This document shows, piece by piece, positions 2,398 to 57,506 of a DNA stretch of 64,000 bases. The notes under the pieces are model-generated. The model saw only the letters and a program-made list of their open reading frames with translations, made no database searches and was not told the origin of the DNA. The stretch's first letter is position 1, and each line of letters begins with the position of its first letter. The DNA lies in NCBI RefSeq assembly GCF_000012325.1, contig NC_003910.7, positions 1,674,001-1,738,000 on the forward strand, given 5' to 3'. Position numbers and translations under genes: made by a program. The DNA is from Colwellia psychrerythraea 34H. GTDB lineage: Bacteria > Pseudomonadota > Gammaproteobacteria > Enterobacterales > Alteromonadaceae.

Positions 2398-2849
2398 GAT
2401 CTCGCCAAAAGCAAACCTGTAACACATTTTGTTTAACTGCTAATTTAAAATAAAGTCCTTTAATCGCTTTTCGAATGACACTGAAATTATTATGGGCTTA
2501 AGTCTGCTGCGTGGCAGCTAATGACCTTAAAGAATGAGCACTGGTAACTTTCCCCTCACCAAAAGCTAACGTCAAAAAAGTGCGCATTGCTGACATTAAC
2601 TTTAAATATTTTTCCATATGTTTTCTAATGAATTATGTCTGTGATGTAGCTGATTTTATGTATAGTTCCACCAGAGACTACGACTTTTCATGAGAAAAAA
2701 GGTATAGCGCCTTCTTTTCACTTAGGGCATGAAACCTAGTTCTTGTTAATGCATTGAAAATCAGTGAATTAACCGTTATGGTTGAACTCAATAAATTAGA
2801 AAAGCCATGATAGCTTGTTTAAATAAGGTACCATGCCTCCTAACCTGCT
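2398..2849 (+). repeat. Diverged copy of the cassette-punctuating repeat unit
   Basis: About 450 bp without a convincing gene. Bases 2510-2640 closely resemble 15636-15765: both carry a GTGGCAGCTA-TGACCTTA block, CTCACCAAAA-CTAACGTC, GTGCGCATTGCTGACATTA and then CATAT-TTTTCTAATGAATTA. The stretch ends CTG|TTAGGT at 2850, the core site opening the first cassette. The palindromes of the better copies are not recognisable here, so it is a decayed relative. No promoter or terminator could be assigned with confidence. Confidence 0.6.
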
Positions 2850-3349: not shown

Positions 3350-4288
3350 ATGGCAATCTTTGAACTTTATTCAACGAAAAAAAGAAAAAACAACGGGGAA
3401 ACTCCTGATGTATATCAATACGAAGATATTCCGCAAAAATTAAAGGTTCAAATAGTACATATTATTAAACAAACAGTAGGAACGAACGCTTCATATGGTA
3501 GAGAGGGTTATTCTGAGACTGTCTATCATGATATCCATGAAATCCTTTGTAAGGAATATGGTGTTTTTTCTTTAGCAAAAATATCAAACATAAGTGATTT
3601 TAACGCTGTTTATAACCATTTTCTTGATAGCGGTGATATAGATGAATGTTTAGATGTTATTGAATTAACATTTAAATTTATTGATATTCATGTAAGAAAA
3701 AAACAATACCAATTCTCACGTGAAGAAGGAACTACACAATTAGCTGAAGATGCTGTTATAGAGTTAAATCAAAGATTTAAAGATGAAGGTGTGGGCTATG
3801 AGTTTGTATCTGGTGAAATTATAAAAATCGATTCTCAATTTATTCACAGTGAAGTTGTAAAGCCAGCTTTATATATTTTACAAGGTGATGCCATATTTGC
3901 AGGTGCTAGAAATGAGTTTTTATCAGCACATACTCATTATCGTAGCCAGCGTTATAAAGAAGCTCTTGTAGATTGTTTAAAGTCATTTGAAAGCTTAATG
4001 AAAGCTATATGTGAAAAGCATGATTGGGAATTTGGGAAAAACGATGCGGCAAAAAAATTAATAAATGTATGCTTAACAAATGGGCTTATACCTACGTACA
4101 TGCAAGAACAATTTAGTCAGTTTAGAGCTTTGCTTGAAAGTGGTGTTCCAACGGTTAGAAACAAAGAAGGTGGTCATGGACAAGGATCCGAAATCAAGAG
4201 TGTATCAGAAACTCTTGTGAGCTATACCTTGCATTTAACGGCAACTAACATTGTATTTTTGGGTGAGTGCGAAAAGAAAGTCAATTAA
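3350..4288 (+). CDS. STM4504/CBY_0614-like protein with AbiJ-type N-terminus and HEPN-like C-terminus (cassette gene)
   Basis: 312 residues. The opening (IFELYSTKKRK, then PDVYQYEDIPQKLKVQIVHI) is the signature of the STM4504/CBY_0614 group, which carries an AbiJ N-terminal domain. The C-terminal part (about 200-300) is helical and ends in a region with VPTVRNKEGGHGQG, whose R-N-x4-H spacing matches a HEPN ribonuclease active site. AbiJ-like HEPN proteins are known from abortive-infection phage defence, so an RNA-cleaving defence role is plausible but inferred. It is the only gene of its cassette (3309-4369); GGAG lies about 9 bases before ATG 3350. No partner antitoxin gene is visible. Confidence 0.6.
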   Translation: MAIFELYSTKKRKNNGETPDVYQYEDIPQKLKVQIVHIIKQTVGTNASYGREGYSETVYHDIHEILCKEYGVFSLAKISNISDFNAVYNHFLDSGDIDECLDVIELTFKFIDIHVRKKQYQFSREEGTTQLAEDAVIELNQRFKDEGVGYEFVSGEIIKIDSQFIHSEVVKPALYILQGDAIFAGARNEFLSAHTHYRSQRYKEALVDCLKSFESLMKAICEKHDWEFGKNDAAKKLINVCLTNGLIPTYMQEQFSQFRALLESGVPTVRNKEGGHGQGSEIKSVSETLVSYTLHLTATNIVFLGECEKKVN

Positions 4289-4375
4289 TTAAACAAGAAT
4301 AAAAAGCAATTGGCTTTTGCTTCTTAGTCGCTTGCTTTAGCCAACAACTTCTTGCCTGTTAATTGGGCGTTATCG
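4283..4375 (+). other. attC recombination site 2
   Basis: Follows the AbiJ-like gene. Stem arms CAATTGGCT and AGCCAACAA are visible, with a G+T-rich loop between, and the site ends GGGCG|TTATCGA at 4369. The R'' box (TTAATTAAAC) is degenerate. Confidence 0.75.
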
Positions 4376-4862
4376 ATATGAAAACTAATCCGAATTCAAT
4401 TCTAGTAGATTGTTGCTAATGTCTCGAATGTGGCAAAAGAAGTCATGTCTCCAATATGGATATCAGCTGTTCTCCTATTACGGTGCACGAACTGAACGTT
4501 CTACAGATAACTCATTACACTTTTTGTTGGTAAAACCCATTCTGCTCAACGTACTTATAAGCTAAGTCAATCGATCCAAAGTAATAACAAAGTGTGTACG
4601 AGCGTTCGATCACGATAGCATTCGGCATGTTTTGCTGTGTATTACGTTAAGCCAAGTTGCTATTAGTGCTGGTGGTGGAAATTGTTGAGGCATTTCATTC
4701 AATCCTTGAAAGTTAACTGCTACTTTCAACTTTAGTTCACGGTTGATAATATTCAAGGTGGTGATAGTTTGTTTACGCTTGGTTAAGCCAGTAGAGAGCT
4801 TATTAGTTATCTTATGGCGATGATTTAAATGTGAAATAACCTTTTATCTAATTACCAGAAAC
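4369..4862 (+). repeat. Start of a punctuating repeat unit, then unexplained sequence
   Basis: Begins G|TTATCGATATGAAAACTAAT, a close variant of the unit start seen at 15573, 18507, 20121 and 24370, and contains ATGTCTCGAATGTGGCAA at 4419-4436, repeated at 5804-5821. After about 4450 the similarity to the unit is lost. Bases 4640-4820 keep a stop-poor frame on the minus strand, but I recognise no family. The matching end of the unit is at about 14600-14900, suggesting that roughly 10 kb was inserted into it. Confidence 0.5.
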
Positions 4863-14503: not shown

Positions 14504-14589
14504 CGAATGTATATGCAGGCACGATAGTATGATCCAGTTATCAGGTATTTCTCTTTAGAAAACGTCCTACAATCTCATTTTATAAACTT

Positions 14590-14900
14590 CTCAAAAGTGC
14601 GCTAAGCGGAAGTTAGCTTCAAAATATTTGCGATATATTTTCTAATGAATTGACTGTGTCATATTACTGAGAAGTCTCAGTAATAAATAAAAATCAACAT
14701 TTCTAAACCCTAACTAATTGATATTATTTGAAATAGGCTTTAATTCTATGTTGGATATTACTGAGAAGTATCAGTAATATCCAAGACCTAACAAAAATAA
14801 AATATTTTTAGTTTATAAGGCACTGAAAATATGGGATATTAATACGAATTAAATTAAAGTTATGGGATGGACATTACTGAGAAGTCTCCATAATAAGCTG
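14590..14900 (+). repeat. 3' part of a punctuating repeat unit with three palindromes
   Basis: Begins near AGTGCGCTAAG and GATATATTTTCTAATGAATT, then carries palindromes at 14662-14685 (core TTACTGAGA-AGTCTCAGTAA), 14751-14784 (same core with TTGGATA/TATCCAA arms) and 14860-14895 (TTATGG...CCATAA arms), ending AATAAGCTG|TTATAAGG. The last junction opens the next cassette. It closely matches 21020-21316. Its 5' partner is probably at 4369. Confidence 0.8.
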
Positions 14901-14924
14901 TTATAAGGTCAATCGAGTTTGCAT

Positions 14925-15485
14925 ATGAATCCAATTAAAAGTTTAGCGACAGAACGTTTGATCTTAAGACAGTGGAAGAGCGAAGATAATATTCCGTTTG
15001 CAGAGTTAAACGCATGTAAAGATGTAATGGAATACTTTCCAAACACTTTAACTGAGATTGAAAGTACCAATTTAGCTTTAAAACTTTCGCAATTAATATC
15101 TGAACGTGGTTGGGGACTTTGGGCTGTAGAAGAAAAGCAATCGAATAAATTTATGGGTTTTGTTGGTTTACATAATTCACCCGCAGAACTTGAAATAAGT
15201 CCAGCAACAGAAATTGGCTGGCGTTTATCAAAAAAATTTTGGGGTAAAGGTTATGCTACAGAAGCTGCTGAGAAAGTTTTAGAGTTTGCATTTAGTGACT
15301 TAAATATTGCTAGTGTTGTTTCATTTACAGCAGTTGTGAATAAACCTTCGGTGAAAGTTATGGAGCGTATAAAAATGACCAATACAGAGCAAAACTTCCA
15401 ACACCCATTAGTTAATAATATTAAATTGAAAGAGCACGTTCTTTATAAAATAACAAAAGAAGAGTGGCTATCCAAAACCTTATAA
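14925..15485 (+). CDS. GNAT N-acetyltransferase, RimJ/RimL type (cassette gene)
   Basis: 186 residues. Opening TERLILRQWKSED and the acetyl-CoA loop region GWRLSKKFWGKGYATEAAEKVLEFAF are diagnostic of the RimJ/RimL-like group that acetylates protein N-termini or small amines. The substrate is unknown; cassette GNATs are often resistance-type enzymes, but nothing here shows that. ATG 14925 was chosen over TTG 14919. Cassette limits are 14900 to 15573, shown by the complementary ends GTTATAA and TTATAAC. Confidence 0.85.
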   Translation: MNPIKSLATERLILRQWKSEDNIPFAELNACKDVMEYFPNTLTEIESTNLALKLSQLISERGWGLWAVEEKQSNKFMGFVGLHNSPAELEISPATEIGWRLSKKFWGKGYATEAAEKVLEFAFSDLNIASVVSFTAVVNKPSVKVMERIKMTNTEQNFQHPLVNNIKLKEHVLYKITKEEWLSKTL

Positions 15486-15579
15486 CAAGGCATTTAAACG
15501 GAACTAAAACAGTTGGTTAGGTTCCGCTTCGCTCCACATTATAACCAACAATTTTAGTCCGCTTAATGCGGCGTTATCG
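15480..15579 (+). other. attC recombination site 3
   Basis: R'' TTATAAC exactly complements the cassette start GTTATAA at 14900. Long arms GGAACTAAAACAGTTGGTTA and TAACCAACAATTTTAGTCC pair with one bulge. It ends GGCG|TTATCGA, joining directly to a punctuating unit. Confidence 0.92.
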
Positions 15580-16071
15580 ATACAAAATCTAATCCAAAGT
15601 GCTGTTCGACGCTAGTAACCTAATGACCGCTTTGTGGCAGCTAGTGACCTTAGGACAATGAACACTGGTAGTTTTGCCCTCACCAAAATCTAACGTCAAA
15701 AAAGTGCGCATTGCTGACATTACAGCTAAAAATATTGCCATATATTTTCTAATGAATTAACTACTAGTGTAAACGATGTAATTCCCTTTCTATGGAAGTC
15801 TGTATGATTTTTCATGGTGTGTTACTGAGACGTCTTAGTAACACACCATTTATTATGATAAATACTCAATACAGTCACTTAACCACCTGAATTTATGATG
15901 TTTTGTTTGTTTTGTGCTTAAGGCGTGTTACTGAGACGTCTTAGTAACACGCCTTAATACACATGTGATTTAACATTACTAGTTTCTAATGCTTTGAAAA
16001 TATGGGATATTAATGTAAATTAAATGTTATTTATGGTGCGTGTGTTACTAAGACGTATACATAATAAGCTG
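15573..16071 (+). repeat. Reference copy of the punctuating repeat unit (gene-free)
   Basis: About 498 bp from G|TTATCGATACAAAATCTAA to AATAAGCTG|TTAGGC, with no credible gene. It holds the TTTGTGGCAGCTAGTGACC block, GTGCGCATTGCTGACATTA, the CATATATTTTCTAATGAATT block, and two nearly perfect long palindromes (15814-15849 and 15918-15957) sharing the core TTACTGAGACGTCTTAGTAA but with different, self-complementary arms (ATGGTGTG and TTAAGGCGTG). A diverged third copy of the core lies at 16043-16062. It behaves as a unit placed exactly between two cassettes. Confidence 0.85.
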
Positions 16072-16725: not shown

Positions 16726-16826
16726 GCCTAACAAGCTGTTAAACAAGGACAAAAAACAGTTGGTTTTTGCTCCTTCGTCGCTTATTTTAACCAACTATTT
16801 TATTGCCTGTTAACAGGGCGTTAAAC
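16726..16826 (+). other. attC recombination site 4
   Basis: R'' GCCTAAC complements the cassette start GTTAGGC at 16071. Arms AAGGACAAAAAACAGTTGGTT and AACCAACTATTTTATTGCC pair; outer arms AGCTGTTAA and TTAACAGGG pair too. Ends GGGCG|TTAAAC at 16820. One of the best-formed sites in the window. Confidence 0.93.
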
Positions 16827-16842
16827 CTACTCGGAGATTTCA

Positions 16843-17295
16843 GTGGTAATTGTTAGAGAAGCGACACTATCGGATATTGGTATTGTGCATGATTTGATTA
16901 TTGCTATCGCAAAGCATCATGACCAAGAGCAATACGTAGTAACTACTAAAGATGAATTAATCAATTCTGGATTTGGAGATAGCCCATCATTTGGCGTGCT
17001 GTTAGCGGAAATTGATGGTGAGGTTGCAGGATATTGCTCTTACACGTGGAATTATTCAATTTGGCTTGGTTCAACTTATATGAATATTGATGATGTATTC
17101 GTATGGGAAAAGTTCAGAGGTAAGCAGATAGGCGAATTATTAATGCTTAAAGCTAAAGAAGTATGTTTAGCTAAAGGTGCTAGTCGAATCAAGTGGGAAG
17201 TTGAACAAGACAATCACGGTGCAATCAAGTTTTATGAGCGTTTAGGTGCCAACCTCGATATTAAAGGTCTTTTCCGATGGGATGTTGCATCGTAG
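16843..17295 (+). CDS. GNAT N-acetyltransferase, Spd/diamine-acetyltransferase-like (cassette gene)
   Basis: 150 residues starting at GTG 16843 with GGAG 7 bases upstream. The family pattern is clear: IVREATLSDIGIVHDLI at the start, IDDVFVWEKFRGKQIGELLMLKAK for the acetyl-CoA loop, and NHGAIKFYERLGA at the end. This resembles small polyamine or amino-acid acetyltransferases; the substrate cannot be read from sequence. Cassette limits are 16820-17387. Confidence 0.85.
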   Translation: MVIVREATLSDIGIVHDLIIAIAKHHDQEQYVVTTKDELINSGFGDSPSFGVLLAEIDGEVAGYCSYTWNYSIWLGSTYMNIDDVFVWEKFRGKQIGELLMLKAKEVCLAKGASRIKWEVEQDNHGAIKFYERLGANLDIKGLFRWDVAS

Positions 17296-17393
17296 GCTTA
17301 ACAAGCAAATCAACAAGGACACGTAACAGTTGGCTACGTTTCGCTACACAATTTTAGCCAACCATTACTTAGCCTGTTATTTGGGCGTTATGT
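17296..17393 (+). other. attC recombination site 5
   Basis: R'' GCTTAAC differs by one base from the complement of its cassette start (GTTAAAC). Stem arms ACAGTTGGCTA and TTAGCCAACCA are visible. Ends GGGCG|TTATGT at 17387. Nearly identical in its stem to the next site. Confidence 0.9.
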
Positions 17394-17492
17394 AGCTAAA
17401 TCGAGACGTGTCGTGCCACTGTCAGGTTGATTTCGTAACCGCCAATGATATTTTCAAGTTAGATTTTCCTCACAGATGGACGAGGGTATTTT

Positions 17493-17906
17493 ATGATAGT
17501 TAAAAAATTAAGAGAGAAACGGAATTGGTCTCAAGAGCAACTTGCAATAATGGCTGGATTAAGTACGAGAACAATCCAGCGAATTGAAAGTGGTAATAAA
17601 GCTAGTATTGAATCTCTAAAATCACTCGCCTCTGTTTTTGAAATAGATATTTCTAAACTAAAAGAGGAAATCATTGTGATAGATAAAAGTTCGGAATCAT
17701 GGAAATCAGAATCATTTTTAGTGAAATTTTTTTTCTGGGGTGTTAAAGCGAGAAAGCAGGTTTTAACTATGGAGTTTCTTTGTTTGGCATTGGGCATTTT
17801 AACTTGGATTGTAAAGCCAGATATATTTGCTACTCCAGCATTCTTTCTCTTGGCTTATATATTTGCAACAATGAAATATTATATTGATCGTAAAAAGCAT
17901 TGGTAA
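17493..17906 (+). CDS. HTH (Xre-type) membrane-anchored protein (cassette gene)
   Basis: 137 residues. An N-terminal Xre helix-turn-helix (about 1-58: REKRNWSQEQLAIMAGLSTRTIQRIE) is followed by a linker and two membrane helices (about 91-108 and 110-126) with a basic tail. This HTH-plus-2TM layout is a known class of small membrane-bound regulators. GAGGG lies 6 bases before ATG 17493. About 100 bases separate the cassette start at 17387 from the gene, enough for a promoter, but I see no strong one. Confidence 0.75.
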   Translation: MIVKKLREKRNWSQEQLAIMAGLSTRTIQRIESGNKASIESLKSLASVFEIDISKLKEEIIVIDKSSESWKSESFLVKFFFWGVKARKQVLTMEFLCLALGILTWIVKPDIFATPAFFLLAYIFATMKYYIDRKKHW

Positions 17907-17913
17907 CTAGTAG

Positions 17914-18018
17914 CTACATAAAAAGAAAATAAACAAGGACACGTAACAGTTGGCTACGTTTCGCTTCGCTACACAATTTTAGCCAACCATTACTTAGCCT
18001 GTTATTTGGGCGTTAGGT
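17914..18018 (+). other. attC recombination site 6
   Basis: R'' box TACATAA within TAGCTACATAA, the complement of cassette start TTATGTAGCTA at 17388, lacking only the final C. Arms ACAGTTGGCTA and TTAGCCAACCA. Ends GGGCG|TTAGGT at 18012. Confidence 0.88.
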
Positions 18019-18045
18019 AGATATGAATAACGGAGGTTGCATCAT

Positions 18046-18393
18046 ATGAAATACATCTTAATTTTTGTAATGATTACTTTTACTAATTTAGTTATCGCTA
18101 AGGATACATATGATCCCTACGATTGTCTTAATGATGTTGCTCGAATAGATCCGAAAATAACAAATGGGTTAGCAACTGAACTTTGCTCTGCCGCTTGGTC
18201 ACCTGAACCTGCAAAGTGTTATGCTGGAGCATCTAAAATAGATGACGAAATTCCTCGAGGGACTGCTGTTGAATTATGTGCAGGCTCCGTAAACGCAAAG
18301 AATACTCTAGCATGTTACGGCAACAGCGGTAGCTGGGAGTTGAATCGTGGGTTAGCAACAACTCTATGTGGTGTAAACAAAATAAAGAACTAG
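18046..18393 (+). CDS. Secreted protein with three Cys-containing repeats (cassette gene)
   Basis: 115 residues with a signal peptide (MKYILIFVMITFTNLVIA). The mature part is a threefold repeat of about 29 residues, each with a pattern like K-C-Y-A-G-A then a short helix and RG-A-x-ELC: compare ITNGLATELCSAA, IPRGTAVELCAGS and LNRGLATTLCG. Paired Cys suggest disulfides in the periplasm or outside the cell. I do not recognise a named family. ATG 18046 has GGAGG 9 bases upstream. Cassette 18012-18507. Confidence 0.7.
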   Translation: MKYILIFVMITFTNLVIAKDTYDPYDCLNDVARIDPKITNGLATELCSAAWSPEPAKCYAGASKIDDEIPRGTAVELCAGSVNAKNTLACYGNSGSWELNRGLATTLCGVNKIKN

Positions 18394-18413
18394 CTCTAGT
18401 AGTTATAAAATCT

Positions 18414-18513
18414 GCCTAACAAGGCAATAAAGCAGGACTAAAAAAAGTTGGCTGTCGTTCGGTGCCTCACTATTTTAGTCAACCATTTTTAGCCTCTTAT
18501 TGGGGCGTTATCG
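18414..18513 (+). other. attC recombination site 7
   Basis: R'' GCCTAAC matches the complement of the cassette start (GTTAGGT) with one mismatch. Arms GCAGGACTAAAAAAAGTTGGCT and AGTCAACCATTTTTAGCCTC pair imperfectly. Ends GGGGCG|TTATCG at 18507, joining a punctuating unit. Confidence 0.88.
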
Positions 18514-18800
18514 ATACAAAATCTAATCTAAGCGCATCAATTCAAGTTCACGCATAATGTCGGCTTTTGTGGTATTAGTTAGCCTTAAAAAATGATTCAA
18601 ACATATCATAAAATGATTGGGTGTTAACTTCTTCTTGGTGCGCATTCCTGACATTAGCCTAAAACTTTTAGCCATATATTTTCTAATGCATTATTCGTGA
18701 CCTATTACTGATACTTTTCACTATTATCCTATATGACAAAAAATAAAAACTTATAGTATCTAAGTGGTTGAAATTATGGGATGTTAACCACAATAATCTG
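18507..18800 (+). repeat. Shortened, diverged punctuating repeat unit
   Basis: Starts G|TTATCGATACAAAATCTAA and keeps TTTTGTGG-ATTAGTTAGCCTTA, GTGCGCATTCCTGACATTAGC, CATATATTTTCTAATGCATT, a worn palindrome core (TATTACTGATA) and the end CAATAATCTG|TTACAT. It is about 200 bp shorter than the copy at 15573 because the second palindrome is missing. Confidence 0.75.
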
Positions 18801-20029: not shown

Positions 20030-20127
20030 TTGCCGCACTCTGACTCGGTAGAATTAACGCAGTCTTTGCTAAAACACAAACAGGGAAAATCACATCAACT
20101 TACTAACAGATAAGCAAGGCGTTATCG
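20030..20127 (+). other. Degenerate attC-like end (site 8)
   Basis: The cassette ends GCAAGGCG|TTATCGATAC at 20121, exactly like other attC-unit junctions, but a standard R'' box and paired stem are not recognisable between the stop codon at 20016 and this point. Either a decayed attC or a cassette that lost its site. Confidence 0.4.
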
Positions 20128-21316
20128 ATACAAAACCTAATCCGATGTATTGATTATTTTTAAAAGCTAAAGTCCGTTTTGTGGCAAATAGTGTCGTAAC
20201 ACGGATAATTTGGCTAGTGCATTAGAAGCTTGAAGTGGAAGTGTGAGTAGCTAAGCGCATTAAAAGGGATTTTTTAAGCATATGAATATCAGAACCAGAG
20301 CTGCTCAAATTAGATCTAGATGGCTAAGAACGGGCTTTCAATGTGAGTTGTCACTCGATGAATTAGAGCCTCTATTTTCAGTATATGCTGAGAGTCCAAG
20401 AGGAAAGCTTGTGATTATTGATAAGAAGCAGGCAATCACCTTAAAAAACCTCCTAAGCTTATCTGCTGATGAATATAATATTTATAAGCTAGACATCAAA
20501 GCTCGTAATCAAGCTACATTGCTTCATACAACGTTAAGCCGTTTTAACCAGCCAGTCTTCGTTAGCATTGATGATATTTATCAAATTATTCGAGATAAGG
20601 TTGATATCAAGAAAAAGTATTTCATACTAAAAAACGAAAACTCACCAGTAACCATCGAAAACCTTATTTTATCCCCCGTGACAAGAACGGAATATTATCT
20701 AAAGCTGAAAAGGAATGCTGACCAAAAAATGATATTTTGGCGAAAAAAAGGGCTTGAACCTAAATTTACTCTCACTCAATTAACCGAACAAATGGAATCC
20801 GTAGGATATAGAATGATTAGTTCTAAAAAAGGGGTTCCTATACGTGACCGAATTAGGATTATCGACAACGAAGAGTCTTTGACGTTAAATAATATAGAAA
20901 TATTAGTTAGTATTGATGATGAATCGAGAGTCAGATTAAGCGTTTAAGTAGCCTTAAAGTAGCTATCCCAAGCGGTTAAGTTTTGGGGACTAACCTAGTG
21001 GCAATGTTCCCTTAGTGCATTGAAGACATTAGCCTAAAATATTTTGCCATATATTTTCTAATGAATAATTCATGTCGTATTACTGAGAAGACTTAGTAAT
21101 AACCTAAAAACATCCGTATAAAACCCTAATGTATTGATTTTATGGGTAATAACCCATTATTCTATGTTGGATATTACTGAGACTTCTCAGTAATATCCAA
21201 GTTACGATAAAAATAAAACATTTATCGTTTCTAAAGCTTTGAAATTATGGGATATTAATACGAATTAATTAAAGGTTATGGGATGGAAATTACTGAGAAG
21301 TCTCCATAATAAGCTG
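20121..21316 (+). repeat. Punctuating repeat unit that contains a gene
   Basis: Begins G|TTATCGATACAAAACCTAA with the TTTTGTGGCAAATAGTG block at 20176-20192, then about 770 bases absent from other copies (including the 221-residue gene), then the shared middle and 3' parts: CTAACCTAGTGGCAATGTTC, GACATTAGCC, CATATATTTTCTAATGAAT, palindromes at 21078-21101, 21167-21200 and about 21275-21311, ending AATAAGCTG|TTAGAA. The 24370 copy shows the same flanks joined without the gene. Confidence 0.75.
20282..20947 (+). CDS. Unknown protein with internal duplication, encoded inside a repeat unit
   Basis: 221 residues, basic, with no recognised family. Two related halves are visible: RTGFQCELSLDELEPLF followed by KLVIIDKKQAITLKNLLSLS, and KKGLEPKFTLTQLTEQM followed by RIRIIDNEESLTLNNIEIL. 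Each looks like a helix-turn-strand module; the middle part (FVSIDDIYQIIRDKVDIKKK, then VTIENLILSP) may be a third, weaker copy. Such repeats suggest DNA binding or a viral or mobile-element protein, but this is inference. The gene lies within a punctuating unit and not in a cassette with its own attC, so it may be the unit's own gene, lost from the other copies. Confidence 0.55.
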   Translation: MNIRTRAAQIRSRWLRTGFQCELSLDELEPLFSVYAESPRGKLVIIDKKQAITLKNLLSLSADEYNIYKLDIKARNQATLLHTTLSRFNQPVFVSIDDIYQIIRDKVDIKKKYFILKNENSPVTIENLILSPVTRTEYYLKLKRNADQKMIFWRKKGLEPKFTLTQLTEQMESVGYRMISSKKGVPIRDRIRIIDNEESLTLNNIEILVSIDDESRVRLSV

Positions 21317-21635: not shown

Positions 21636-21729
21636 TTCTAACAAGGCGCTTAAACGGAAAAATTACAGTTGGCTCGCGCTTCGCGCAGTTTAGCCAAACT
21701 GTATTCTTCCACTTAGCTTAGCGTTATAT
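21636..21729 (+). other. attC recombination site 9
   Basis: R'' TTCTAAC is the exact complement of the cassette start GTTAGAA at 21316. Arms TACAGTTGGCT and TAGCCAAACTGTA pair, with the GC-rich loop CGCGCTTCGCG. Ends TAGCG|TTATAT at 21723. Confidence 0.92.
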
Positions 21730-21743
21730 ACCTTGGAGGCTGC

Positions 21744-22031
21744 ATGGAATTTTCGACCATATTAATCTTATTCTTTGCTGCCCATGGTTTAGTCGCTTTT
21801 GTAGTTTCAATATCAATTTTGAGTTGTCCATTCAGGTTTGGTAATGAGAAGTTAGGTTTGTTTTTGCTAACTTGGTTAATTCCACTTATTGGTGCAATAT
21901 TTTCACATCATCGTATTGGGACGTTAGGTTCAATTAAAGGTGATAGCTCAAATAGCGGCACTACTTCCGTTGATATTCCCCCATCCAGCGGAGGTTGTGA
22001 TGGTGGTACAGGAGGCGGTGACTGTGATTAG
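21744..22031 (+). CDS. Small membrane protein with Gly/Cys-rich tail (cassette gene)
   Basis: 95 residues: two membrane helices (about 4-25 and 36-54), then a Ser-rich linker and a short tail with CDGGTGGGDCD. Unknown family; small two-helix proteins are common among cassette products. TTGGAGG lies 6 bases before the ATG, a strong ribosome-binding site. Cassette 21723-22134. Confidence 0.65.
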   Translation: MEFSTILILFFAAHGLVAFVVSISILSCPFRFGNEKLGLFLLTWLIPLIGAIFSHHRIGTLGSIKGDSSNSGTTSVDIPPSSGGCDGGTGGGDCD

Positions 22032-22041
22032 AGTAAAAGGT

Positions 22042-22140
22042 ATATAACAAGCTGTTAAACAAGGACAAAAAACAGTTGGTTTTGCTTCTTCGTCGCTAAT
22101 TTTAACCAACTATTTTTTGCCTGTTAACAGGGCGTTATGT
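22042..22140 (+). other. attC recombination site 10
   Basis: R'' ATATAAC, inside AGGTATATAAC, complements the cassette start GTTATATACCT at 21723 over 11 bases. Stem arms match attC site 4 almost base for base (ACAAAAAACAGTTGGTTTT and TAACCAACTATTTTTTGCC). Ends GGGCG|TTATGT at 22134. Confidence 0.93.
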
Positions 22141-22157
22141 TTTCGATGAGTGTGCAT

Positions 22158-22982
22158 ATGTTAATTTACCATTACACAACTGTAGATACCTTTTTAAAGA
22201 TTCTAGATAGCAAAGCAATCTGGGCTTCTGATCTTTCAAAAATGAATGATCCCCAAGAGTTTACAATTGGTATTGAGCTAATTAAAAAATTCTATCAGAA
22301 AAAATTTCCAGATTTATTACATTGGTTTGAAAACGATCGATTCGTTGGCTTAGATAATGAGCAACTCCTTTTAGGATGTTCTTTTTCTGAAAATCCTGAC
22401 GACTTAAGCCAATGGAGAGCTTATGGTGACGATGGGAAAGGCGTAGTTATTGGGATTAACAGAAGAATTTTAAGTGCAAGTAACACATTAACGATACCCG
22501 CATTTTATAAAAAAGACGAAAGAACAGCTAGTTTCGTACATTTCCATAAAGTGATTTATGATAAACAAGAATTTGAAAATTCGGTTAAAGAACTATTAGA
22601 TAATATTGGTGATTTTATTAATGACACAGTTGAGAGCTTTAAGTTATCCATTGGATTATCAAGGTTAGCTTGTTCTTTCAAATCTGACTTCTATAAAACT
22701 GAGCAGGAAATTAGGGCAATTCTAGAGCATTCAAAGCGTTCAGATATTTATTTAGATGAATCGCTTAAAAAGCATAAATTATTTGATGTGAAATTTCGTT
22801 TGTCACAATTCGGATTAGTGCCTTACTGTAAAGTAAATCTAAGCAACGCAGATGCTTCTTCAATCCAAACCGTTAAGCTTGGTCCTAAGTGTAATATTTC
22901 AAAAAAAGATTTGGAGTTTATGCTTTTAGCTACTGGGAACAAAGATATTCTTGTTAGCACTTCTGCGGGGCAGTATAGGTAA
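22158..22982 (+). CDS. DUF2971-family protein (cassette gene)
   Basis: About 274 residues. The start LIYHYTTVDTFLKIL followed by AIWASDLSKMNDPQEF, then GCSFSENPDDLSQWRAYGDDGKGVVIG, is the DUF2971 signature. The function of the family is not established; members are frequent in phage-defence and accessory regions. I place the start at ATG 22158, which gives the family's usual N-terminus; in-frame ATGs at 22137 (inside the attC core) and 22146 are alternatives. The gene therefore begins almost at the recombination point and must rely on an upstream promoter or read-through. Cassette 22134-23078. Confidence 0.8.
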   Translation: MLIYHYTTVDTFLKILDSKAIWASDLSKMNDPQEFTIGIELIKKFYQKKFPDLLHWFENDRFVGLDNEQLLLGCSFSENPDDLSQWRAYGDDGKGVVIGINRRILSASNTLTIPAFYKKDERTASFVHFHKVIYDKQEFENSVKELLDNIGDFINDTVESFKLSIGLSRLACSFKSDFYKTEQEIRAILEHSKRSDIYLDESLKKHKLFDVKFRLSQFGLVPYCKVNLSNADASSIQTVKLGPKCNISKKDLEFMLLATGNKDILVSTSAGQYR

Positions 22983-22984
22983 AA

Positions 22985-23084
22985 ACATAACAAGCGCTTT
23001 AAACGGAACAAAAACAGTTGGTTAAGTTCCGCTTCGCTACACATTTTAACCAACTATTTTTGTCCGCTTAAGTGGGCGTTATGT
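22985..23084 (+). other. attC recombination site 11
   Basis: R'' ACATAAC, inside AAAACATAAC, complements the cassette start GTTATGTTTT at 22134. Arms CGGAACAAAAACAGTTGGTTAA and TTAACCAACTATTTTTGTCCG pair nearly throughout. Ends GGGCG|TTATGT at 23078. Confidence 0.93.
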
Positions 23085-23106
23085 AGTTATGGATATTTCA
23101 GGGTGA

Positions 23107-24321
23107 ATGGATATGTCAAAAAAGAATGATGCGGTATTTGATGGCTTTGATAAAGCGCGTTCAAATATAAGGAACGCAGTAATTGTAATGCTGACGCTAT
23201 CTGCTCTGTTTTTAACCGCAATAGAAAACTCTAAAGATACCCTTGTGGAATATTCAATTGCTGCAGAGTCATTAGATAGGCAACCTGAAGTTCTTAATGA
23301 ATATAAATCTTGGGTAAAAGAAAAGCTCTCAACATACTCAGCGAGTGAGTACGAGAAAATCTTTTCAAATGTGGAGAAGTCTACAAAGTTTAAGCTGGTA
23401 GAGCTTCCTACTTCAGGAAAGTCAAACCTCCCTGTAACAATAGCCAGAAAAGAAATTTCTACGGTTGAGGGGCTAAGATATGCAACTATGCCCATTCTTC
23501 CTAGAGAAATTACATATTGGTTAAATGAGTTACCTTTCAAGATTAAACAAAACGCTGAAATAAGCCTCTTCGAGGTTAATTCATTAAGTAATGCACTAGA
23601 AAATGGTAGCTTTAATTGCAGTTCAAATAAAAGGTTTTGGACATTCTGTGACGAGAAGGAAAGTATGGATCCTTCGAATTACCCATCGGGGGCTCAATAT
23701 TTTAAACTTGATACGACGCAAGGGCTGTGTATCGATAGCGAAGCTATAAATACAGGTAGTCTAGCAGTAGCGTGCAAGGTGATTAGTGTTCCAAATTCAT
23801 CAATATCTGCATTTCTATCAGAAAAAAAAGAAAAACTACCACTGCCTATTTCAAGCCCTCCTAGCTACCAGCAGGTTTCTGAGATTCTTGGAGATGTAAA
23901 AACCATTGATGATTTTCGAGAAAAAATACATAGATATAAGAGCGACGCTCAAAAATTACAGTTTAGTAGTTTTGATTTTTCAAGTAATTTCATTGTTCCT
24001 GGATCCATCCTAGTTGTTTCGTTGATCTTCTTACAGATGTTGTCCAATTTGAAATTCTGCAATAACAATCTCACCAATGAAAACAGCTTCTTTAGTTTAT
24101 CTCTTATTCATAATGATTTAATAATAGCTATAATATCTTGGGTTGTGGTTGTAATCTTGATGCTGTTCTACCTTACTTCTGGTTTCGTGTATATTGATAA
24201 GAATGCATTTCAAGTAATAGCATTTATCATTGCATCATGCGTCCTGTGCGTTGCAGTAATTGTGAGTGCCAAGTTATGTTTTTTAATTAGAATCAAAGCA
24301 TGCAAACTGACAAATACATAA
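23107..24321 (+). CDS. Membrane protein with large extracytoplasmic region (cassette gene)
   Basis: 404 residues. One membrane helix near the N-terminus (about 20-37), a long extracytoplasmic part with several Cys (about 38-295), then three helices near the C-terminus (about 296-315, 335-355, 362-390). I recognise no family. The two Cys in GSFNCSSNKRFWTFCDEKE and two further on suggest disulfides. ATG 23113 is an alternative start two codons in. It occupies one of the two longest cassettes (23078-24370, 1.3 kb) and ends in an unusually short attC. Confidence 0.6.
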   Translation: MDMSKKNDAVFDGFDKARSNIRNAVIVMLTLSALFLTAIENSKDTLVEYSIAAESLDRQPEVLNEYKSWVKEKLSTYSASEYEKIFSNVEKSTKFKLVELPTSGKSNLPVTIARKEISTVEGLRYATMPILPREITYWLNELPFKIKQNAEISLFEVNSLSNALENGSFNCSSNKRFWTFCDEKESMDPSNYPSGAQYFKLDTTQGLCIDSEAINTGSLAVACKVISVPNSSISAFLSEKKEKLPLPISSPPSYQQVSEILGDVKTIDDFREKIHRYKSDAQKLQFSSFDFSSNFIVPGSILVVSLIFLQMLSNLKFCNNNLTNENSFFSLSLIHNDLIIAIISWVVVVILMLFYLTSGFVYIDKNAFQVIAFIIASCVLCVAVIVSAKLCFLIRIKACKLTNT

Positions 24322-24376
24322 CAATTGCGTCAATTGGGACGCTCGCAAGCTCGCGCCTATTACGCAGGCGTTATCG
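24316..24376 (+). other. Short attC recombination site 12
   Basis: Only 61 bases: R'' ACATAAC complements the cassette start GTTATGT at 23078 and overlaps the stop codon. The stem is ATTGCGTCAATTGGGACGC against GCGCCTATTACGCAGGCG, differing in sequence from all other sites here and of the short 60-bp class. Ends AGGCG|TTATCGA at 24370. Confidence 0.85.
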
Positions 24377-24540
24377 ATACAAAATCTAATCCAACCTGCC
24401 CAAATTACCGTTATTGCTAACGTCTTCTTTGTGGTAATAGTGATCATAAACCGACTACCCAAAGCAGTTTGATTTTTGGCACTAATCCTAAGCTAGTGCC
24501 AATGTTTACTTAGTGGTAAAAATTGACTCCCAGACCCCAC
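24370..24540 (+). repeat. 5' part of a punctuating repeat unit closing the second cassette group
   Basis: G|TTATCGATACAAAATCTAA, then TTCTTTGTGGTAATAGTGATC, CTACCCAAAGCAGTTTGATTT and CTAGTGCCAATGTTTACTTAG, matching 20121-20192 joined to 20965-21020. The palindromic 3' part is absent; chromosomal genes begin after it. The rest to 24680 is AT-rich with no gene. Confidence 0.75.
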
Positions 24541-52728: not shown

Positions 52729-53031
52729 TAGTTAAATACACAGACTAATAATAAAAAGTGAATGTTGCGTGTGATAGTCATAGAGTCATAGAGTCATAAG
52801 ATTTGTAAGGAATTCGACTAATTGCTCTTGCAACTTTATTATTTATTCTAGTTAGTTTCTTTTCTGGTTCATAGGGAGTAAATAGATTAGTTCATCTGTA
52901 AAGGTTGGATATCTAGTACTATAAACAACTCTATGTAACCGTGTGTTTAACAGATTGAATTTATGATGTCTTCTGTTATGTTATTAAACTTTGAAGTGGG
53001 CGTTATTACTGAGACATATACATAATAAGCT
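52729..53031. repeat. Gene-free region ending in a shortened punctuating unit
   Basis: Bases 52738-52940 show nothing I recognise. Bases 52975-53031 hold the end of a punctuating unit: GTGGGCG|TTATTACTGAGAC, then ATACATAATAAGCTG|TTATGA at 53032, opening the third cassette group. The palindromes are largely missing. Confidence 0.6.
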
Positions 53032-53084
53032 GTTATGAGTCTAGTTCAAAACGGTGGTGCAGCTATCACAAAGGAAATCATTAA

Positions 53085-53333
53085 ATGAATAAATCTCAAG
53101 AAAGTGTAGAAATTAATAAGCTAGGAGATTTATCATATCCTCTTGTTTCAACAGCTATGCTAATGCTCTTACTTCAGGTTGGTTTAGTTAGTGTGAACTA
53201 TGATATTAGTGGAGACTCAATAATGAGTTTGTATTTACCTGCAATGGTTATTCTTGCTGGAATTTGGGTGCCAACATTGAAAGTTAGGCGTTTTGTAAAG
53301 CGACACAAGAACTCTAGTGCAAGCGATTTATAA
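53085..53333 (+). CDS. Small two-helix membrane protein (cassette gene)
   Basis: 82 residues: a charged N-terminus, two membrane helices (about 20-36 and 45-63) and a basic C-terminus (VRRFVKRHKNSS). No family recognised. AAAGGAAAT lies 6 bases before ATG 53085. First gene of the third cassette group, cassette 53032-53421. Confidence 0.6.
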   Translation: MNKSQESVEINKLGDLSYPLVSTAMLMLLLQVGLVSVNYDISGDSIMSLYLPAMVILAGIWVPTLKVRRFVKRHKNSSASDL

Positions 53334-53427
53334 CGAGTCAATAAAGCAGGACTAAAAACAGTTGGCCATGCTCGTGCCTCGCTGATTTTAGCCAACAACT
53401 TTTTAGCCCCTTATTGGGGCGTTAGGA
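53328..53427 (+). other. attC recombination site 13
   Basis: R'' TTATAAC overlaps the stop codon. Arms GCAGGACTAAAAACAGTTGGCC and TTTTAGCCAACAACTTTTTAGCC pair imperfectly and resemble attC site 7. Ends GGGGCG|TTAGGA at 53421. Confidence 0.85.
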
Positions 53428-53439
53428 GCAAAGTAAACT

Positions 53440-53799
53440 ATGGAGAATCCATCAACGTTATTAGTCGTTCATAACCTTAATATTTCAAAAGAGTTTTATG
53501 TGAATGTTTTAGGACTTGAATTGATGGAAGAGCATAACGACTGTTTAAAATTAAATATTGGTCATCATATAGTGTTTATGTTCCAGAGCGGGATGGAATC
53601 AATCGAATATGAGCATGGTTATAATGCTAATTCCACCTTGGTTTTTACTGTTCAAAATTTGGATGAAAAAATTAGAGATTTGAAGTCAAAAGGTGTTGTT
53701 TTTGTGCATGAATCACCAAACCAAAATAGATGGGGACGTTATTCGGCTTTTAAAGATCCATCTGGCATTGTTCATGAACTAATGGAGTTTTTCAGCTAA
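53440..53799 (+). CDS. VOC-family (glyoxalase/bleomycin-resistance-like) protein (cassette gene)
   Basis: 119 residues, one VOC domain: LLVVHNLNISKEFYVNVLGLEL, HHIVFMF, FTVQNLDEKIRDLKSKGV, and GRYSAFKDPSGIVHELMEF with the last Glu as likely metal ligand. VOC proteins bind metals or sequester antibiotics and toxins; the substrate is unknown. It is a cassette gene (53421-55171) whose attC has been split by an insertion sequence. Confidence 0.85.
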   Translation: MENPSTLLVVHNLNISKEFYVNVLGLELMEEHNDCLKLNIGHHIVFMFQSGMESIEYEHGYNANSTLVFTVQNLDEKIRDLKSKGVVFVHESPNQNRWGRYSAFKDPSGIVHELMEFFS

Positions 53800-53872
53800 C
53801 AAGAATTTAAAGCGGGACTGTGAAGTTCCCCCGTTTTAGTGGACACCTCCTCATAACATTGAGGAGGCTAAA

Positions 53873-54247
53873 ATGCCTAGATATACCCAACCTAAAAAGA
53901 CGTGGTTTTACCCTGTTAATTTCAAAATTAAAGCTGTCGAGCTAAGCTTACGAAACGACATGTTATCTAAGGATGTTGCTCAAGCGTTGGATATTCACCC
54001 GTTAATGCTAAGCCGTTGGCGTAAAGAATACCGAGAAGGGAAGTTTAAAAAAAACCAACACTATCAGAGCAATAGTGAACTCATGAGTAAAATCCCCACA
54101 AAGAAAGAACTAAATAAAATTAAACAGCTGCAAAAAGAAAACGACCGTTTAAAAATGGAAAATGATTTACTAAAAAAGTGGCAACGGTATCTGGCGGAAG
54201 TCCATCAGAGCGATTTGGATTCATCGAAAAACACAAAGAAGCCTTAG
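53873..54247 (+). CDS. IS3-family transposase OrfA
   Basis: 124 residues. Helix-turn-helix (VNFKIKAVELSLRNDM, VAQALDIHPLMLSRWRKEYREG) for binding the element ends, then a leucine-zipper-like coiled coil (NKIKQLQKENDRLKMENDLLKK) that dimerises with OrfAB. GGAGG lies 4-8 bases before the ATG. The slippery A6G at 54172-54178 lets ribosomes shift -1 into OrfB. Confidence 0.92.
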   Translation: MPRYTQPKKTWFYPVNFKIKAVELSLRNDMLSKDVAQALDIHPLMLSRWRKEYREGKFKKNQHYQSNSELMSKIPTKKELNKIKQLQKENDRLKMENDLLKKWQRYLAEVHQSDLDSSKNTKKP

Positions 54248-55065
54248 GTGTTAAATACCTTTGCTCATGGCTTGATGTCTCTCGTAGTGGCTTTTATGCA
54301 TGGCGACGACGTCCACGTTCAATGCGTGCTATTAATGATGCGGATTTACTTTTAAATATCAAACAAGTCTTTAATAACAATCATCAAACCTACGGCAGCC
54401 CACGCGTATTTCATGCATTAAAGCGTGAAGGTATTACAACGAGTGAGAAGCGTGTTGCACGGTTGATGCGAGAAAATGGCTTACGCGCTAGAGCGCTCAA
54501 GACTTATAGCAGGCCAGCTAAGGTGAAGTTCTTTTATAAAGCGATCAAAAACAATCGTAAAAACATAAGTAAGCCTGATGCTATCAATCAGCAATGGTCG
54601 GGAGATATTACGTACCTGAAAGTAGGATCGCGCTGGTATTACTTAGCCGTTGTATTAGATTTATTTTCACGTCGTATCATTGGTTGGGCTTTTGGTCAGA
54701 ACAAATCAACAGCGCTGACACTGAAAGCGCTGCAGCTAGCAATAAAGAAGCGTAAACCGACACAACCCTTGTTATTTCATACTGACAGAGGCGCTGAATA
54801 TCGAGCACATGTAGTGCAGCAGTTCTTAGTTAAACATAACATTACGGCGAGTATGAACCGTCCAGGTTGTTGTACTGATAATGCTGAAGTTGAATCATTT
54901 TTTCATTCATTAAAAGCTGATTTAATCAGAGGGAATGTCTTCGCGACTACTGATAAATTACATTCAAAATTAAAAGGTTACATGAACTATTTTTACAATA
55001 GACAACGATTGCATTCAAGTTTAGGATATAAAACACCTGCTGAGTTTGAATTGGCGGTGAATTAA
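54178..55065 (+). CDS. IS3-family transposase OrfB (made as OrfAB by -1 frameshift)
   Basis: 295 residues; the integrase-like catalytic domain with D in QQWSGDITYLKVG, D in LLFHTDRGAEY and E in NAEVESFFHSLKADL. An HTH_21-type region (QTYGSPRVFHALKREG) precedes it. The frame overlaps OrfA by 70 bases and begins at the slippery site, so the working enzyme is the fusion. Ends 34 bases before the right inverted end. Confidence 0.92.
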   Translation: MATVSGGSPSERFGFIEKHKEALGVKYLCSWLDVSRSGFYAWRRRPRSMRAINDADLLLNIKQVFNNNHQTYGSPRVFHALKREGITTSEKRVARLMRENGLRARALKTYSRPAKVKFFYKAIKNNRKNISKPDAINQQWSGDITYLKVGSRWYYLAVVLDLFSRRIIGWAFGQNKSTALTLKALQLAIKKRKPTQPLLFHTDRGAEYRAHVVQQFLVKHNITASMNRPGCCTDNAEVESFFHSLKADLIRGNVFATTDKLHSKLKGYMNYFYNRQRLHSSLGYKTPAEFELAVN

Positions 55066-55191
55066 AGTGGATGGTGTCCACTTTATCGGGGGAAGATCAC
55101 TGCTAACAGTTTGCTCAGTTTCGCTTCGATCAACAATTTGAGAAAATTAATAACAAAACCTTATTTGGGCGTTATAAACCATGGATAGTGT

Positions 55192-55488
55192 ATGAGTCAT
55201 AGCAAGGTCATTCTTTCTACTATTGATGTTACTACTAGAGGATTGGCAGCATTAATATTATTGAGAGCTTTTCCTTATCTATTTCAAAAAATCCTCTTTG
55301 GCACGTGGGATTATTTAATTTGGTTTTATCCAATTGTTTGGTTAGCATTATTATTATTATCCGTTCACCCTAATTTTATTGTGAATAAAATAAACCTACC
55401 AAAAATGACTTCATGGTTTATAGCAAGGATTCCTGCATTCTTTATTATTATTGTTGCTGCCTGGTTCTTTTTAAAGTCGGGGAGTTAG
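55192..55488 (+). CDS. Small three-helix membrane protein (cassette gene)
   Basis: 98 residues with three predicted membrane helices (about 12-32, 40-58 and 72-93). No family recognised. The region 55171-55191 upstream has no clear ribosome-binding site. Cassette 55171-55593. Confidence 0.6.
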   Translation: MSHSKVILSTIDVTTRGLAALILLRAFPYLFQKILFGTWDYLIWFYPIVWLALLLLSVHPNFIVNKINLPKMTSWFIARIPAFFIIIVAAWFFLKSGS

Positions 55489-55497
55489 AGTAAAATG

Positions 55498-55599
55498 AAT
55501 TATCACTAGCTGTTAAACAGGGACAAAATACAGTTGGCTTTTCTCCTTAGTCACTCATTTAAACTAACTATATTATTGTCTGTTAACAGGGCGTTATGT
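55498..55599 (+). other. attC recombination site 15
   Basis: Outer arms AGCTGTTAAACAGGGACAAAA and TTGTCTGTTAACAGGG pair, as do ACAGTTGGCTT and AACTAACTAT less well. The R'' box (ATTATCAC) is worn. Ends GGGCG|TTATGT at 55593. Confidence 0.75.
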
Positions 55600-55624
55600 G
55601 CTTATTCAACTTTAGGAGATTGTT

Positions 55625-56065
55625 ATGGTTAATATAAATCACCGAATTGGTATTAAGGCTTCACCTGAAAAAATATATCAAGCATTGACTACAGATGATG
55701 GACTAAAAAAATGGTGGACTAACGATATATCTGGAGCAGGAGTTGTGGGCTCAACGATTAAGTTTCGTTTTAACGGTGGAGGTCCCGATTTTAAGGTTAC
55801 AAAACTCATTCCAAATAAAACTGTATGTTGGCAACATGCTGGGAATATGCCCGAATCATGGATGGGTACAGAGATTTCATTTCAGTTAGAAACTGTAGAG
55901 AATCAAACATTTGTAAGGTTTACTCATTCTAACTGGCATGAAACAACTGATTTTATGGCTCATTGTAATACTAAATGGGCAGTATTCTTACTTAGCCTCA
56001 AGGATGCGCTTGAAATTGGTAAGGGAACCCCCTTTCCAAATGATATACAAATTGATCATTCTTGA
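55625..56065 (+). CDS. SRPBCC (AHSA1-like) domain protein (cassette gene)
   Basis: 146 residues. The START-like fold opens NHRIGIKASPEKIYQALTTDDGLKKWWTND, with GSTIKFRFNGGG and a C-terminal helix (NTKWAVFLLSLKDALEIGKG). Members bind hydrophobic ligands or act as enzymes on small molecules; function here is unknown. TAGGAG lies 8 bases before the ATG. Cassette starts at 55593; its attC is damaged. Confidence 0.8.
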   Translation: MVNINHRIGIKASPEKIYQALTTDDGLKKWWTNDISGAGVVGSTIKFRFNGGGPDFKVTKLIPNKTVCWQHAGNMPESWMGTEISFQLETVENQTFVRFTHSNWHETTDFMAHCNTKWAVFLLSLKDALEIGKGTPFPNDIQIDHS

Positions 56066-56071
56066 TAAAAA

Positions 56072-56156
56072 ATCACATAATAAGAACTTCGAACGGAACA
56101 AAAGCAGTTGGTTAGGTTCCGCTTAGATCTTGTGCCACTTTGGAGAACAGTTATGT
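56072..56156 (+). other. Damaged attC site 16 with retained core
   Basis: The left half is normal: CACATAATAAGAACTTCG (R'' CACATAAT matches the cassette start GTTATGTG), GAACAAAAGCAGTTGGTTAG and GTTCCGCTT. The right half is replaced by unrelated sequence, but a core ACAG|TTATGTG follows at 56150 and opens the next cassette. A deletion or a faulty recombination event is likely. Confidence 0.65.
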
Positions 56157-56171
56157 GTCATGGAGACTGCG

Positions 56172-56546
56172 ATGTCTAAAAATACTGCAACATATTGGAA
56201 TACTTTATCCGCAGGTAATGCCCATAAATGGGAATCTATAGAAGGTAGTGATGGAATGCTAGAACAGCTAACCGTTGCTATGGATTCAATTACAGGCGAT
56301 TACACTAGGTTGACACGATTCAAAGCTGGAGCCGATACAAAATTATTTGGTGGTAAATCACATGCTTATCCTGAGGAAATATATATAATTTCTGGCCGAC
56401 TTTATGATGTGGCATTTGATCAATGGTTAGAGGCTGGTCATTTTGCTAGTCGTCCCCCAGGTGAAATTCATGGGCCATTCATTTGTGAGCAAGACTGTTT
56501 AGTTTTGGAAGTTTCATTTCCAAGTCAGAGTGTATCTGCCACATAA
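56172..56546 (+). CDS. Cupin-domain protein, ChrR-like (cassette gene)
   Basis: 124 residues from ATG 56172; ATG 56160 four codons upstream is possible. A single cupin: RFKAGADTKLFGGKSHAYPEEIYIISGRLYD and HFASRPPGEIHGPFICEQDC, the two conserved motifs with metal-binding His and Glu. It resembles the anti-sigma-type ChrR cupins in layout, but no sigma factor is nearby. Cassette 56150-56634. Confidence 0.75.
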   Translation: MSKNTATYWNTLSAGNAHKWESIEGSDGMLEQLTVAMDSITGDYTRLTRFKAGADTKLFGGKSHAYPEEIYIISGRLYDVAFDQWLEAGHFASRPPGEIHGPFICEQDCLVLEVSFPSQSVSAT

Positions 56547-56640
56547 TAAGTTACTAAAGCAGGACAAATAAAGCTTGGCTTTTGTCAATGCATGCCAGAT
56601 TTTTCCAAGTATTTATTTGCCTCTTAGTAGGGCGTTAGTG
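56539..56640 (+). other. attC recombination site 17
   Basis: R'' box CACATAAT nearly complements the cassette start GTTATGTG at 56150. Arms GCAGGACAAATAAAGCTTGGCTT and TTTCCAAGTATTTATTTGCCTC pair well. Ends AGGGCG|TTAGTG at 56634. Confidence 0.87.
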
Positions 56641-56752
56641 CCTATCAACACTTGGTTCACCAGAACTATAAAATCTTAAATCAATTACTTTAAAGCGTTA
56701 AAACTTTTGCTATGATGAGGCTTGTTATATTTAATAATAGTCAGAGAGCAAT

Positions 56753-57355: not shown

Positions 57356-57506
57356 TCGTAAACAGTGAAGAGCCTTTGATATTGCAGAAAAACACGGATA
57401 ACTTATTAGAATAATTACTTGTGGTTTTTATAAATAGTAACGATTTCCACGATCATTACTGTTTACTAGATGAGATGAAATCTCACAGAGAGAATATGTA
57501 TAAAGG

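Follow-up and report, generated by a model that had tools for sequence, protein, structure and literature searches.

The window, the 64,000 nucleotides of the Colwellia psychrerythraea 34H chromosome that were analyzed (G000:C1:1674001-1738000, from a genome that is a single contig of 5,373,180 bases), contains arrays of integron cassettes between repeated sequences. Two motif halves mark the borders of an array: the attI-END AATAAGCTG stands before the cassettes and the START TTATCGATAC after them. The attC sites were identified with a covariance model derived from 12 local attC, including two at START junctions, and the outer ends with profiles trained on 59 left and 68 right copies. The arrays with their ends were designated elements A to F and have the following parts.

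2565..2631 (+), left end of element A, GTGCGC at 2580; left-end profile, 74 bits
3216..3312 (+), attC of element A; covariance model
4277..4372 (+), last attC of element A, ending at G|TTATCGA; covariance model
4369..4433 (+), right end of element A, from START to GTGG; end profile
14582..14648 (+), left end of element B, GTGCGC at 14597; profile, 65 bits
14649..14888 (+), leader of element B, palindromes TTACTGAG..CTCAGTAA at 14664 and 14758, an altered one at 14874 running into attI
14889..14903 (+), attI of element B, CATAATAAGCTG|TTA; motif
15481..15576 (+), attC of the single cassette of element B; covariance model
15573..15637 (+), right end of element B; end profile
15638..15703 (+), spacer of 66 bp between elements B and C; from the end positions
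15689..15755 (+), left end of element C, the outer arm overlapping the spacer; profile, 63 bits
16060..16074 (+), attI of element C; motif
16727..18510 (+), cassettes of element C, attC at 16727-16823, 17297-17390, 17917-18015, and 18415-18510
18507..18572 (+), right end of element C; end pattern
18573..18637 (+), spacer of 65 bp between elements C and D; from the end positions
18623..18689 (+), left end of element D, the outer arm overlapping the spacer; profile, 76 bits
18789..18803 (+), attI of element D, CACAATAATCTG|TTA; motif
20121..20184 (+), right end of element D, no model attC before it; end profile
20998..21064 (+), left end of element E; profile, 51 bits
21305..21319 (+), attI of element E; motif
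21637..24373 (+), cassettes of element E, attC at 21637-21726, 22043-22137, 22986-23081, and 24317-24373 (short, 33 bits)
24370..24434 (+), right end of element E; end profile
53006..53035 (+), attI of element F, last palindrome altered, no left end by profile; motif
53329..57599 (+), cassettes of element F, attC at 53329-53424, 55501-55596, 56542-56637, and 57509-57599, degenerate START at 57596

The attC sites listed are those of the + strand; weaker matches, most of which are reverse-strand counterparts of these sites, and a match at 55082 (E-value 0.35) are omitted. A cluster of attC sites lacking an integrase gene is termed a CALIN (PMC8618304, PMC9229058). Elements A, C, E, and F qualify as such, with at least two attC sites each and no intI gene nearby, and element B has one attC only.

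The cassette ORF of element B (14919-15485) is acetyltransferase-like by eye, and a cassette ORF at 3350-4288 with AbiJ N-terminal and DUF7014 domains may be a phage-defence cassette. Between elements A and B, the minus strand carries TniQ, TniB/AAA, and TnsA-like genes (5890-10777) and, at the position of tnsB, a 685-aa gene that matched no Pfam or NCBIfam model; beside this cluster are umuDC (12806-14460) and an ORF with a GmrSD C domain. These Tn7-like genes were considered as a mover of the elements and set aside: the 685-aa gene is single copy in the genome, and the cluster is located between elements, not inside them. A two-ORF transposase pair, IS3-like by eye over the first 60 residues, sits within two different cassette arrays, at 53873-55065 of the window and at L038 10665-11857 (minus strand). 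At 48808-48887, GTTAGCGATATAAGC and a subsequent site resembling a right end (18 bits) may represent a decayed right end.

Composition of the intervals between the arrays

All six G|TTATCGA junctions (4369, 15573, 18507, 20121, 24370, and 57596) and all five AATAA(G/T)CTG|TTA points (14900, 16071, 18800, 21316, and 53032) that had been reported in a sequence-only reading of the window were found. This reading had also described an attC as ending at each of the six START junctions, and the covariance model placed one exactly there at five of them and none at 20121. It had furthermore assumed 300 to 500 bp of conserved, noncoding sequence between the motifs, which applies to two of the five intervals between a START and the END that follows it, 15573-16071 (499 bp) and 18507-18800 (294 bp), and not to the other three. 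One of these is 1.2 kb long and contains a 221-aa ORF, one is 10.5 kb long and contains Tn7-like (TnsA-like, TniB-, and TniQ-type) and umuDC genes, and the third consists of ordinary chromosome over 28.7 kb. Truly conserved are about 66 bp on one side and roughly 160 to 370 bp on the other side, and the middle varies between copies. Because the lengths and contents of the START-END intervals vary this widely, END-cassettes-START is the repeating thing, and copies elsewhere in the genome keep the same order. The presumed unit spans two neighboring cassette-bearing elements, taking in the right end of the first and the left end of the second.

The stretch from START to END had been interpreted as a gene-poor cassette with a new type of recombination site. 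Two of the intervals, 15573-16071 and 18507-18800, are indeed flanked by G|TTA and located between cassettes, but the other three are occupied by the 1.2, 10.5, or 28.7 kb mentioned, and the halves are also found alone at other loci. With halves that can be separated by up to 28.7 kb of chromosome, such a cassette is hardly conceivable and was dismissed. The suggestion of a repeated landing site with its opening at AATAAGCTG|TTATCGATAC was essentially right in that the cassettes are located between these halves, but the unit had been cut inside out. The joined AATAAGCTG|TTATCGATAC form free of cassettes, which had been proposed for a check, was not found in the 39 genomes of the genus with up to 3 mismatches allowed: of 13 pattern matches at 3 mismatches, two were inspected and neither was an element, and the remaining 11 resemble by eye attC ends in front of a START. 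An 18-base joined pattern gave 16 exact matches in records of unrelated taxa, which were taken as chance.

The connection of the junctions to attC sites was evaluated in 51 stretches from the window, the remaining own genome, and relatives, picked for carrying the motifs. The following counts and those of the 46 copies below consequently describe a motif-selected sample and not genome-wide rates. An attC ended within 3 bp of the junction in 37 of 63 right-end copies, compared to 27 of 20000 random positions. The other 26 of the 63 had no model attC at the junction, half of them (13/26) still reading GC|GTTA. When an attI copy had a left end upstream, an attC followed within 2.5 kb in 28 of 32 cases.

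Structure and distribution of the elements

An element is composed of a left end, a palindromic leader of about 270 bp, the putative attI (AATAAGCTG|TTA), which was assigned by sequence only, the cassettes, and G|TTATCGATAC with the right end of about 66 bp. The left end reads GTGCGCAnnGnnGACATTAGC and then GCCATATATTTTCTAATG, from where the distance to attI is most often 272 to 275 bp. Complete leaders contain the palindromes TTACTGAGnnnnCTCAGTAA, the last of which is altered and merges into attI. In a scan for a cassette promoter Pc, no sigma-70-like site was found in the region of the element B leader (14590-15000), compared to a mean of 2.3 in shuffled sequences. The right end consists of G|TTATCGATACAAAATCTAATCC, about 22 variable bases, and GCTAATGTCnGCnnTGTGG, and the copies diverge beyond. 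In the 59 left and 68 right copies the ends are inverted to each other, the left one reading ...GTGCGCATTGCGGACGTTAGC and the right one, reversed, ...TTACCACAAAGCGGACATTAGC. The resulting terminal inverted repeats comprise about 35 bp with inner parts that mirror each other, which is a hallmark of MITEs. The outer boundaries are formed by a GTG core, usually at a distance from the G|TTA points of about 300 bp on the left side and about 66 bp on the right, and conservation in the end profiles extends about 13 to 15 bases past this GTG on both sides. GTG was present at 92 to 96% of the ends, a figure that is not independent evidence because the search anchors contain GTG. The profiles were counted in the same stretches that were used for training, the G015 and G052 copies included, and some of the tallied ends may be artefacts of the fuzzy patterns.

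The left part was matched in at least 24 of 25 genomes of the genus and in none of 16 genomes from other families of the order, among the matches listed, and the START pattern in 23 of 39 genomes of the genus, with no match of the reversed-pattern control. From 50 left-right spans, those of 70, 6, and 4 bp and one at the edge of a stretch were removed, leaving 46 spans, all longer than 400 bp, with a range from 0.64 to 6.8 kb. A recognizable attI was present in 26 of these copies (20 without) and at least one model attC in 34 (12 without): 0 attC in 12 spans, 1 in 10, 2 in 9, 3 in 8, 4 in 3, 5 in 3, and 8 in 1. The own genome contributed 11 spans, five of them within the window, with a model attC in eight and an attI-like site in seven. 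Tandem right-left junctions were found 17 times with spacers of 46 to 88 bp and once with 361 bp. At L241 5314-5381, a right end is joined to a left end without a spacer and reads like a circle or tandem junction. The element B leader had no match at an E-value of 0.001 among plasmids and phages, and one IMG/VR contig carries a copy.

Integrase lineages and origin of the leader

A match to the integron integrase was present in 36 of the 39 genus genomes at an E-value of 1e-30, 31 of them above the family cutoff. The common lineage, IntI-A, adjoins serS in at least six genomes. A second clade, IntI-B, is 41 to 43% identical to the reference used and has four open members, one each in G004 and G047 and two in G015. 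When the 600 bases upstream of the intI genes were scanned (fewer for some IntI-A genes), the leader palindromes were found at three of the four open IntI-B genes and at none of the 28 open IntI-A genes. A close AATAAGCTG|TTA match at the place of attI occurred upstream of 24/28 open IntI-A and 3/4 IntI-B genes, and AATAAGCTGTTA with up to two mismatches upstream of 24/28 open IntI-A genes. The leader thus belongs to the second integrase lineage, IntI-B.

One IntI-B integron is enclosed by the ends. At G015:C55, the order is left end, intI-B (open, 320 aa, 414 bits to integrase_gron), a LexA-like box, two palindromes, attI, three attC sites, and right end, with a second right-end copy 334 bp further on, and the G015 leader is among the matches of the left-part search. 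A remnant of intI-B is located beside a weak left end at G052:C41. Among the open IntI-B loci, only this one in G015 has a left end, which is absent from G004, G047, and the second G015 locus.

In the own genome, no whole intI was found: one integrase fragment at 4.198 Mb (131 of 315 positions, one stop) is distant from the elements, and two further weak matches cover 70 and 49 positions. An intI gene beside attI occurs in the G015 copy and not here. Because only a fragment is kept, cassette traffic in this genome would need an integrase from outside, and its arrays are probably frozen today. Downstream of serS at L037 (G000 2864.8-2867.4 kb), cassettes follow a leader like that of the mini-elements without an integrase.

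CALINs are described as originating from off-target insertion, loss of intI, or rearrangement (PMC8618304). Off-target insertion, in this case of cassettes by the integrase into repeats merely resembling attI, is a route stated there, but the left side of the elements is the leader common to IntI-B integrons, including its palindromes, which makes this origin very improbable. The simplest history starts instead from a parent IntI-B integron between two inverted-repeat ends, with left end, intI-B, LexA-like box, leader, attI, cassettes, and right end. If intI-B was lost, the left end and the leader that it had separated would have come to lie side by side, and the derivative would then have spread through the genus. 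Copies with an attI would take up cassettes between AATAAGCTG and TTATCGATAC by action of an integron integrase in trans.

Possible movement of whole elements

Two copies in the own genome, at 375-378 kb and 3.10 Mb and hence 2.7 Mb apart, are 93% identical over 238 positions of the leader and 98% over 64 of the right end. Their 600-bp flanks have no significant match to each other (best E-value 0.15), and their cassette regions have only pieces of 56 to 97 bases in common. The right ends of element C and copy m208 are 97% identical. When six joined flanks were compared with the genus, most of the strong matches, among those listed, ended at the join or a few bases from it. A match in G045 crossed the join by 15 bases (75% over 87) and one in G016 by 8 bases (82% over 55). 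At both sites a module of the flank type abuts other sequence at GTGG with no mini-integron between, so that both look empty and can be assigned to the same family of sites, with orthology not proven. At one locus the G045 flanks are 18 bp apart with differences also in the neighboring bases, and G046 has the right flank there without an element, only this flank being readable. An orthologous and fully clean empty site was not found for the six joined flanks in the genus genomes. The evidence from G045 and G046 supports insertion and leaves the reaction unfixed. At L362 2295-2432 (G045:C18), a chain of short modules joined at GTGG and then GTGCGC has no array between and resembles flanks of elements elsewhere.

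These flanks also bear on the possibility that rearrangements broke up former chromosomal integrons and that the repeats are static relics of attI and end. The own genome lacks a whole intI, many copies are without attI or attC, no clean orthologous empty site was found among those inspected, and the own genome has cassettes and no integrase at serS, where at least six relatives carry intI-A. Such debris is nevertheless improbable: the same pair of ends recurs around different cassettes with unrelated flanks, copies occur in tandem, and the ends are present in 23 to 24 genomes, among the matches listed.

A MITE-like transposon, with inverted ends for a DDE transposase acting in trans, GTG as target preference, and attI as passive cargo, would agree with the inverted ends of about 35 bp, the many copies, and the one copy with intI. 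IS110-family edges at end-like sites point in the same direction and recall IS1111 elements targeting the inverted repeats of the Tn21 family, as worded in a reference title in PMC11187229. No variable target duplication was detected in 46 pairs, however (best 5-base window, mean z of 1.36), only the constant GTG. Moreover, the flanking arms are conserved, and such arms are also joined at GTGG where no element is present, which is not expected of random targets. A MITE-like transposon is therefore rather unlikely. For an ordinary transposable repeat, the sequence-only reading had expected copies mainly away from cassettes, target duplications, and boundaries other than G|TTA. The attC in 34 of the 46 copies and the missing variable duplication contradict this, but the outer boundaries are indeed not at G|TTA.

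IS110-family transposase genes adjoin two elements of the own genome, by eye with edges at end-like sites. IS110-family elements with edges on sites like the ends of the mini-integrons were noted at L042 ~4249-5746 and L035 ~10330-11680, and the L035 element has by eye subterminal repeats of the IS1111 type.

Alternatively, the system may have two levels, with genes as integron cassettes and arrays plus attI as "super-cassettes" of a second site-specific system, its recombinase acting in trans and possibly being IntI-B itself. Arrays, spacer modules of 46 to 88 bp, and chromosomal sites would be joined via a two-armed site of about 36 bp with a GTG core. Still unlikely, this explanation gained weight from modules joined at GTGG with no array present, which is how an emptied site would look. 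A two-armed site pattern matched the own genome 45 times, compared to 22 times for the reversed control, which is too weak for mapping of sites. In 400 kb near the turn of the GC skew, five sites scored at least 16 on the right-end profile, compared to 0.4 on average for 10 simulated sequences, and two of the five are by eye further right ends. Lone two-armed sites like AATTAGGTCGGCTTTGTGGCAAAAGTGATC occur at G000:C1 2514272, 2748120, and 2771469 and in the window at 5773-5831 and 46540-46600. Lone sites are above chance in the 400 kb and perhaps targets of the elements. The best match to a dif consensus was 19/28 in the 400 kb around the skew turn, and nothing was found that relates the ends to dif. 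A second end family (LJ/RJ) was traced without reaching a recombinase. In the partly annotated contents of the 46 copies, no genes between the ends were noticed as candidates other than intI-B in G015.

Taken together, the arrays are probably contained in copies of a mini-integron that is, or once was, mobile and that derived from an IntI-B integron. The weight of this explanation is slightly lowered because just 26 of 46 copies keep a recognizable attI. For the copies that keep the leader, there is good support for an IntI-B integron with fixed ends that is dispersed in copies without intI and has the arrays at its attI. It is likely that whole arrays move as blocks. A recombinase or transposase acting on the ends would then move the complete element with its cassettes in trans and join the ends to flanking sites at the GTG core. 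Candidates for this end mechanism are a DDE transposase with a preference for GTG and a second site-specific system.

Relation to known systems and biological meaning

Integrons of the Tn402 type are marked by tni genes and Tn402 ends. The p-dif modules of Acinetobacter plasmids are arranged in tandem, and each of their boundaries has a short two-armed site; the elements share these two features, with a relation of their ends to dif not established. Compared to the Tn402 lineage, the elements have other ends with a GTG core, are chromosomal, and were found here in one genus, and no transposition gene was noticed when the sequence of the G015 copy was read. As in mobile class 1 integrons of this lineage (PMC8618304), the G015 copy has intI, attI, and cassettes between inverted-repeat ends, and as in derivatives of Tn402 without tni genes, the copies would need help in trans.

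Integron mobilization units and MITE-flanked class 1 integrons (PMC13367494, PMC3934969; Gillings 2009, by its cited title) likewise are small inverted-repeat elements tied to cassette movement. In those, miniature elements are at both ends of an integron, whereas here one element holds attI with the cassettes inside. IS1111/IS110 elements are reported to target attC, REP sequences, or transposon ends (PMC11187229). The IS110-family edges at end-like sites fit this, but these insertion sequences are guests at the ends and not carriers of arrays.

Like CALINs, the arrays are attC clusters far from intI, several per genome. Unlike CALINs, many are bordered on the left by an attI and leader and on the right by a fixed end, both repeated throughout the genome and neither of them part of the definition as worded in the cited passages, where chromosomal integrons are described as sedentary (PMC8618304). 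In a full-text literature search, no title or abstract opening described such intI-less, attI-bearing elements with fixed ends. The closest counterparts in kind are CALINs and defective mobile integrons, from both of which the elements differ by the combination of an attI, fixed repeated ends, and no integrase gene.

Mini-integrons that bear an attI and have fixed ends mean that cassette arrays can grow at many places of the chromosome and may move as blocks. This provides a concrete origin of CALINs that can be tested, and the attI sites without intI form a natural collection for asking which integrases act in trans.
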